Part shown: piece by piece, positions 18,259-51,193 of the stretch
How positions within the stretch are numbered: the first letter of the stretch is position 1
Layout: the number at the start of each line of letters is the position of its first letter
Assembly (NCBI RefSeq): GCF_000305775.1
Contig: NC_018866.1
Span: 1,860,001-1,924,000, forward strand
Direction: 5' to 3'
From: Dehalobacter sp. DCA
Lineage (GTDB): Bacteria > Bacillota > Desulfitobacteriia > Desulfitobacteriales > Syntrophobotulaceae
Length of the DNA stretch: 64,000 nt
Notes under the pieces: model-generated
Told to the model about the DNA's origin: nothing
Databases searched by the model: none
The model's input: the letters and a program-made list of their open reading frames with translations, nothing else
Translations under genes and position numbers: made by a program

Positions 18259-18314
18259 TTATTGCTATTTGTTATTCGTTTTGTTACTTGTTATTCGTTA
18301 TCTATCATCTAACT
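18259..18314. repeat. Degenerate heptamer tandem repeat, AT-rich (tract A)
   Basis: Eight consecutive 7-mers in phase: TTATTGC, TATTTGT, TATTCGT, TTTGTTA, CTTGTTA, TTCGTTA, TCTATCA, TCTAACT. It fills the gap between the secreted protein gene and the ABC ATPase gene. Confidence 0.6.
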
Positions 18315-18324
18315 TTGCATCTGT

Positions 18325-22617: not shown

Positions 22618-22740
22618 TTTTTTCTCCAGCAAACTTATAATATTGAACTGGACGGTATGCTTGTTTTCAAAAGAGCCAACAGGAAGTTCGAAGCTGAACA
22701 TGTGTCAATGTTCAGAGGTACGATTCATGTGTGTGATTAA

Positions 22741-22852
22741 TGGTTATCGATACGCTTATTTGGTTTCGTTACCCGGTATCAATCAATTCCTGGTATCCGG
22801 TTTCCGTTATCTGCAATCGAACACCGAACCTCGAACTTCGAACTTCAAAATT
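22741..22852. repeat. Degenerate heptamer tandem repeat between rplQ and truA (tract B)
   Basis: The clearest units are CGAACAC, CGAACCT, CGAACTT, CGAACTT (22818-22845). Looser 7-mers such as TGGTATC, CGGTTTC, CGTTATC lie upstream. No ORF fits the 22618-22863 gap. Confidence 0.6.
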
Positions 22853-22863
22853 AGGCCTTCATC

Positions 22864-25623: not shown

Positions 25624-25741
25624 CTAAATTTCACACCCCCATGTTCGATAATTAGTTCCAGTTACTTGATTTTCATATTTAGCGTCCGACTTTGTTAGTG
25701 TTAATCCGGTCCAAAGGCGACAACCCGCACATATTGCTAAT

Positions 25742-25825
25742 CGATGTTCTAAGTTCGTTGTCCGGTATTGTCTGCTAGATCTTTGATGCATAATCATCGA
25801 TCTTCGAACCTCGAACTTCATCCTC
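25742..25825. repeat. Degenerate heptamer tandem repeat between rpmJ and rpsM (tract C)
   Basis: Twelve 7-mers in one phase: CGATGTT, CTAAGTT, CGTTGTC, CGGTATT, GTCTGCT, AGATCTT, TGATGCA, TAATCAT, CGATCTT, CGAACCT, CGAACTT, CATCCTC. Looser 7-mers may extend it to about 25640. It shares CGAACCT-CGAACTT with tract B. Confidence 0.65.
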
Positions 25826-25828
25826 GAT

Positions 25829-50654: not shown

Positions 50655-51032
50655 TTATTTTACGTCTACGCCGGCACCAGCTTCAACAAGTTTAGCTTTG
50701 ATGGCTTCAGCTTCTTCTTTGGTAATTTTTTCTTTGACAGATTTCGGTGCGCCGTCAACAAGATCTTTAGCTTCTTTTAAGCCCAGGCCAGTGATTTCAC
50801 GGACAACTTTGATGACGTTGATCTTTGCAGCACCAGCGCTGGTCAGGATAACATCAAATTCTGTTTGCTCTTCAGCAACAGGAGCAGCAGCGCCAGCTGC
50901 CGGGGCAGCCATAACAGCTGCGGGAGCAGCAGCGCTTACACCAAACTCTTCTTCGAAAGCTTTAACGAGCTCAGCAAGCTCAAGAACGGTCATACCTTTT
51001 ACGGCTTCTAAAATTTCAGCAGTTTTGGACAT
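50655..51032 (-). CDS. rplL: 50S ribosomal protein L7/L12
   Basis: A 125-aa stalk protein. N-terminal dimerisation helices ([20 protein letters not shown]) are followed by an Ala/Pro-rich hinge (about residues 35-55) and the factor-binding domain with [23 protein letters not shown] at 51032 has AAGGAGG 8 nt upstream. The 161-bp gap after rplJ is long for this pair. Confidence 0.97.
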
Positions 51033-51155
51033 TAGAATATCCTCCTTAAAATAATTCACATATTTTTCATTTTTGTTTTGACCATCATTAGATCTGTTAA
51101 CATCCGGCACCGTCCAAACCTTCGTGTCAGATGTTGGATAGTCCCAGAGTCTGCG

Positions 51156-51193
51156 CATGCATCGGGCCTCGGGCATCGAATCCCGTGCCTCGA
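51156..51193. repeat. Degenerate heptamer tandem repeat between rplJ and rplL, GC-rich (tract D)
   Basis: In-phase 7-mers CATGCAT, CGGGCCT, CGGGCAT, CGAATCC, CGTGCCT end against the rplJ stop codon. Looser units may extend back to about 51065. Confidence 0.55.

Follow-up and report, generated by a model that had tools for sequence, protein, structure and literature searches.

A heptad repeat element between rpmJ and rpsM

The 205-bp gap between rpmJ and rpsM in Dehalobacter sp. DCA is, on balance, best explained as a worn repeat element, in which arrays of the heptamer TTCGADR form two facing arms around a variable core and take up the space from the rpmJ stop codon to the rpsM Shine-Dalgarno sequence. 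The gap lies at 25624..25828 (minus strand) of the window, by which we mean the whole 64-kb stretch of DNA analyzed, and the neighboring genes infA, rpmJ and rpsM are all on the minus strand. It shows both direct and inverted 7-periodicity (z 5.8 and 5.0, respectively), neither of which was equaled in any of 500 controls. At k = 5, 6, 8, 9 and 10, no periodicity was detected in the gap, direct or inverted.

The forward arm (25793..25828, minus strand) is flush with the rpmJ stop codon and reads ATCGAGG ATGAAG TTCGAGG TTCGAAG ATCGATG, the second unit (ATGAAG) being one base short; it contains a model match at genome positions 1885795-1885819 (E 5e-4). The inverted arm (25740..25762, plus strand) consists of ATCGATG TTCTAAG TTCGTTG, which on the gene strand becomes CAACGAACTTAGAACATCGAT (CAACGAA CTTAGAA CATCGAT), and has a model match at 1885741-1885768 (E 0.07). 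The two arms are separated by a loop (25763..25792, minus strand), whose heptamers GGTATTG, TCTGCTA, GATCTTT and GATGCAT resemble each other only weakly in phase. From the intact outer arms at the corresponding place in the related genomes G002, G004 and G021, we infer that 25642..25651 (plus strand; TTATCGAACATGGGGG on the gene strand), which adjoins the rpsM Shine-Dalgarno sequence, is probably the final unit of an outer inverted arm that has decayed.

The first-pass annotation had described 25742-25825 as twelve successive heptamers in one phase. The 7-bp period is real: there are 40 matches out of 77 at lag 7, compared with 21.0 ± 4.2 expected, a count that none of 20,000 first-order Markov controls reached, and lag 7 ranks first among the short lags, with lag 14 as the runner-up (35 matches). 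The single run, however, resolves into two opposing arms, and the heptamers in its middle belong to the weakly phased loop. A coding reading of the 65-aa open reading frame at 25624-25821 was rejected; it has no NCBIfam match, and the gap in G003 is 204 bp long with a one-base deletion that shifts the frame. Rfam searches of the 64-kb window at gathering score returned only tRNAs and an L10 leader, none of them in the element, and searches of 20 element loci returned only tRNAs.

When lags were scanned over the 64 kb, the best lag-7 windows were located at 22790 (41/63), 18244 (36/63) and 25746 (33/63). The maxima for lag 9 (37) and lag 12 (38) both fall in coding DNA, and lags 4 and 6 reach 32. 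Since other lags attain similar maxima within 64 kb, a value of 33/63 is unremarkable when taken alone, and the window statistic would be weak evidence; it is the family in related genomes that makes the rpmJ-rpsM tract convincing.

For the genome as a whole (G000, a single contig of 3,069,953 bases), the periodicity figures rest on 464 kb of stretches. Intergenic DNA in this sample shows no general rise at lag 7. Strong lag-7 segments number 6, compared with 0.15 expected, and lags 8, 10, 11 and 14 exceed their expectation as well. The intergenic lag-7 excess on which the first-pass annotation had let its case depend is therefore narrow in Dehalobacter sp. DCA; it is clear in the related genome G045.

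Similar 7-bp tracts had been proposed elsewhere in the window, and the one near 22741-22852 is well supported. It lies in the 162-bp rplQ-truA gap (22702..22863, minus strand), which has direct and inverted 7-periodicity (z 6.2 and 5.2) and a forward arm (22817..22848, minus strand) that reads TTTGAAG TTCGAAG TTCGAGG TTCGGTG TTCGA (model E 3.7e-8). Two further tracts are tentative members: a GTTATTC-type heptad tract just 5' of an ABC-transporter ATPase gene (18259..18315, plus strand), and a short tract between rplJ and rplL, proposed to start at 51156, which runs from the rplJ stop codon as TCGAGGC ACGGGAT TCGATGC CCGAGGC CCGATGC (51158..51193, minus strand). Both fit the family by position, but neither gap reaches significance on its own (P 0.10 and 0.21, respectively). 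The open reading frame at 50655-51176 has its start called some 50 codons upstream of where rplL should begin, as its match to L7/L12 begins at residue 51.

A family of arrays with a shared unit grammar

The proposal of a family of heptamer tracts is borne out in related genomes. Four tandem TTCGANN units with up to two mismatches occur in 14 of the 25 genomes of the family and, with one mismatch, in 48 of the 74 genomes of the order, identified from its genomes as Desulfitobacteriales, where the reversed pattern is near zero. Mismatch-free runs of five GANRYNN units are present in 52 of the 83 class genomes surveyed and absent from all nine surveyed genomes of the sister family f4. For this pattern, the reversed control gives counts that are low overall, but not zero, and high counts in a small number of genomes (for example, G018). 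Outside the class, exact TTCGANN arrays of four units are present in 11 of 299 genomes of the phylum in all, distributed over scattered families.

The motifs TCAGAAG, CAGAAGY, TCGGAGG, CACGAGG and TTCGAGG have the looser rule GADRYNN in common, and one array sometimes mixes cores. The first-pass annotation had noted a constant period with a sequence that differs from site to site. Both are seen, but the variation is not free, since the units obey GADRYNN. Among arrays that were found by their period and then oriented by the consensus, neighboring units disagree least at G4 (mismatch 0.18) and most at position 6 (0.50).

In G045, period 7 alone exceeds controls, in direct as well as inverted orientation, with elevated values at lags 7, 14 and 21; the size of this effect is biased upward, because the stretches were picked on array-bearing contigs. 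G025 was considered as a second genome with genome-wide periodicity and is not used as support, since its mean is driven by a single 424-bp array. That array occupies a gap near 1010078-1010501 of its contig C1 (L269) and consists almost entirely of GAAGTCA and GAAGTCG heptads. A sample from G033 (L275), a genome otherwise poor in heptad arrays, holds a clean AAGAGTA array of about nine units.

The rpmJ-rpsM gap itself contains the intact plan in G002, G004 and G021, with a forward arm directly after the rpmJ stop codon, an inverted arm that reaches up to the rpsM Shine-Dalgarno sequence, and a total length of 153 to 272 bp. The element is decayed in G000, G001 and G003, G006 has a forward arm only, and G009 retains a remnant of the inverted arm. 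No heptads were found in this gap in G005, G007, G010 and G011, nor in the Desulfosporosinus-like genomes. Gaps that lack heptads or retain no more than a remnant measure 52-131 bp, with one exception of 194 bp. The cores of the rpmJ-rpsM elements do not align with each other; rpmJ and rpsM are approximately 87% identical among members of the genus. In the Desulfosporosinus-like genomes (genus g15, which we take to be Desulfosporosinus), the gap is 92-95 bp long and well conserved (L319, L327), with a small hairpin, TTGGAG...CTCCAA, and an AT-rich stretch, and it might serve as a promoter or as a leader.

Placement and orientation of the arrays

Arrays of at least three units, surveyed in 11 genomes, were present in 61 of 639 co-directional gaps, 4 of 106 divergent gaps and 0 of 90 convergent gaps, although most of the stretches were chosen because they hold arrays, which affects these densities and not the orientations. 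The difference between co-directional and convergent gaps is significant (Fisher P 3.6e-4), with similar median gap lengths (163 and 158 bp). Of the arrays in co-directional gaps, 68 are oriented outward with respect to the nearest gene and 13 face it, and wherever a gap holds both directions, the forward array comes first (13/13).

The same polarity is seen in G045, in which 15 of 18 forward arrays are near the upstream stop codon (median 18.5 bp past it), 14 of 19 inverted arrays are near the downstream start (median 23 bp before it), and the forward array precedes the inverted one in all five gaps that have both. Inverted arm pairs lie directly against stop codons, Shine-Dalgarno sites and tRNA ends, and the spacers between tRNA genes share the plan. 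The earlier view of single runs had overlooked these pairs at gene ends, which are almost confined to co-directional gaps. The arms within one element share the motif class, with CAGA in one arm and TCTG in the other.

Turnover and proposed origin

The arrays change between close relatives. The tRNA-Val/tRNA-Asp spacer of Dehalobacter sp. DCA is longer than that of four other genomes of the genus, G001, G002 and G003 among them, by exactly 14 bp, or two units. This single case supports the earlier suggestion that slippage takes part. The rplQ-truA gap is approximately 162 bp long and contains heptads in G000, G001 and G003, and is approximately 13 bp long in G002 (rplQ 92% identical), while G004 and L018 carry other heptad versions. 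The suggestion had been slippage followed by drift, and only its first half agrees with the data as it stands: even drift predicts equal decay at all positions of the unit, and the uneven mismatch profile makes slippage with even drift an incomplete account.

Directly observed are a family of arrays with a 7-bp period, inverted pairs of consistent polarity, a preference for co-directional gaps, one length change by two units, and one difference in presence or absence within a genus. We consider it moderately probable that these belong to a heptad repeat element that grows by slippage, acquires an inverted second arm, decays and persists near neutrality. Arrays would arise and change length mainly through 7-bp slippage. 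The opposing arm may originate from an inverted duplication or from a template switch through a hairpin. Arrays would later decay, and the rpmJ-rpsM copy would be what remains of one. They would persist in co-directional gaps because they do little harm there, and the arms could base-pair in the transcript to form a long hairpin, with the additional spacer looped out.

Besides the uneven mismatch profile, further observations argue against this account. The better pairing of an element's own arms, which would favor it, depends on the CAGA elements. The absence of arrays from all 90 convergent gaps is avoidance beyond what a neutral element needs. In addition, slippage alone does not predict that GADRYNN is shared by arrays with different cores, or that TTCGADR occurs in scattered families outside the class.

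Alternative explanations

It is possible, but in our view unlikely, that the elements are selected intercistronic RNA hairpins, the arms of which pair in the mRNA or tRNA precursor and join a stop codon with a Shine-Dalgarno site or two tRNA ends, and which act through RNase III cleavage, transcript stabilization or translational coupling. The co-directional bias and the position of the arms, flush at stop codons, Shine-Dalgarno sites and tRNA ends, agree with such a role. The predicted stems are strong, for example -71 kcal/mol in G002 and -79 kcal/mol in G004, and elements fold more stably than control gaps (mean z -2.9 versus -1.4). However, the margin by which the gene strand folds better than its complement (-3.3 kcal/mol per 100 nt) does not exceed that in control gaps (-4.3).

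The arms of an element pair better with each other than with swapped arms (19 pairs; P 0.003, and 0.011 within genomes), but when the three CAGA elements are left out and five elements of the Dehalobacter family are included, significance is lost (P 0.17). The arms thus share the motif class, and finer covariation within the TCGA class is unsupported. Many relatives also lack the element in the very same conserved gaps. Selection on an RNA hairpin was thus sought in the strand-folding and arm-swap tests and not found. The earlier idea that a protein or RNA reads the period has so far gained no support.

A mobile miniature inverted-repeat element, with terminal heptad arms as the putative binding sites of a trans-acting transposase, appears rather improbable. 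REP- and MITE-type elements resemble the heptad elements in their inverted arms, intergenic and transcribed position, and repetition of one core, and differ from them in that heptad arms are tandem and of variable length and their cores mostly unique. Inverted arms do flank a core here, and 17 of 74 genomes carry one and the same core between heptad arms, in as many as 13 copies. Many loci share an identical order of units, for example TTCGATATTCGTGGTTCGA, and the rplQ-truA gap shows presence and absence. Most cores differ, however, and orthologous elements carry unrelated ones. Single arms occur (G006), the arms, although inverted, vary in length, and the copies of the recurring core are mostly situated in one operon region per genome rather than dispersed. 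An unsystematic look identified no target duplication.

The recurring core (L373, L374, L375) is 83 bp long, GAATTCGATTCTGCGAATCGAAG...GTTCGCTTCGATTCGAA, and the 17 genomes that have it between heptad arms are Desulfosporosinus-like (g15); by eye, the proteins encoded around it in G047 and G048 look like those of an mre-min-rod operon. At two loci of G053:C15 (L369/L370), the palindromic repeat TTCTgAGcacAGCGAAGAATCTT ... AGATTCTTCACTTCGTTCAGAATGA lies beside heptad arms; it looks like a widespread small repeat.

A dedicated process might write or keep heptad arrays with the fixed grammar GADRYNN, directed away from gene ends and independent of the exact motif, in several unrelated bacterial families. 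We regard this as improbable. If true, the heptamers of Xanthomonas and Nostoc and those of Beggiatoaceae would be products of that process, and not of quadruplex formation or local regulation.

The grammar and orientation might instead be kept by selection for a putative DNA- or RNA-binding protein that reads GADRYNN at 7-bp spacing. The uneven conservation across unit positions, the grammar common to different motifs and the orientation of arrays away from the nearest gene would suit such a protein. Seven base pairs are not the helical repeat, so that successive units face different sides of the DNA, and the number of arrays varies among related genomes from a handful to many tens, and we therefore consider a protein-binding array very unlikely. 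Chance periodicity selected by eye is scarcely credible, and for the rpmJ-rpsM and rplQ-truA tracts it has been disproved, because the equally high maxima at other lags in the 64 kb and the two of four listed tracts without significance of their own are outweighed by family-wide arrays with near-zero controls and by opposing arms in the rpmJ-rpsM gap of three related lineages.

Comparison with known heptamer systems

Bacterial heptamers have so far been explained case by case, by G-quadruplexes, translation control or slippage. In Xanthomonas and Nostoc, the heptamers GGGNATC and GGGGA(C/T)T occur singly or as inverted pairs; repeats on the coding strand lie near stops, those on the other strand upstream of starts, and divergent gaps rarely hold them (Rehm et al., 2015, PMC4692102). 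The arrays described here are likewise intergenic, degenerate heptads, single or in inverted pairs and rare between divergent genes, and corresponding gaps in relatives carry repeats of variable length. Unlike the G-run units of Xanthomonas and Nostoc, TTCGADR and the consensus TTCGARG have no G run, which leaves no G-quadruplex explanation; the arrays also extend to tRNA spacers and are found in an order of Bacillota. The polarity and placement known from Xanthomonas and Nostoc, combined with a unit that is not quadruplex-forming, make the quadruplex unlikely as a general cause.

TAACTGA direct repeats have been described upstream of starts in Beggiatoaceae, Cyanobacteria and Bacteroidetes (MacGregor, 2015, PMC4679880). 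They resemble the present arrays as intergenic heptamers of two to six units, sometimes many more, that occur in ribosomal protein operons and are patchy in distant groups. The TAACTGA unit is nearly invariant, directed at start codons and free of inverted pairing, in contrast to the degenerate, oppositely paired units found here. As cited in these two papers, heptanucleotides are the most common unit of long bacterial simple sequence repeats, for which polymerase slippage was proposed (Mrazek et al., 2007); most of our arrays would be too degenerate to count in that survey of clean repeats, as far as the citing papers describe it. With the heptameric repeats of the kind reported by Rehm et al. 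and Mrazek et al., the arrays share an excess of period 7, which in Dehalobacter sp. DCA itself holds for a few tracts only, the polarity towards stops and starts, and variation by unit lengths (one case).

In the open-access papers searched, we did not come across a description of these repeats for either Desulfosporosinus or Dehalobacter. The ribosomal-protein and tRNA operon spacers of the organohalide-respiring Dehalobacter emerge as sites of fast spacer turnover, and the origin of period 7 becomes testable in culturable organisms that are rich in arrays. The best reading is that the arrays are a variant of the known degenerate intergenic heptanucleotide repeats, for which we found no description from Clostridia. 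As far as the open-access literature shows, what sets this variant apart is the bacterial group, the non-G unit, the grammar common to different motifs, and the inverted arms that lie flush with gene ends in ribosomal and tRNA operons.
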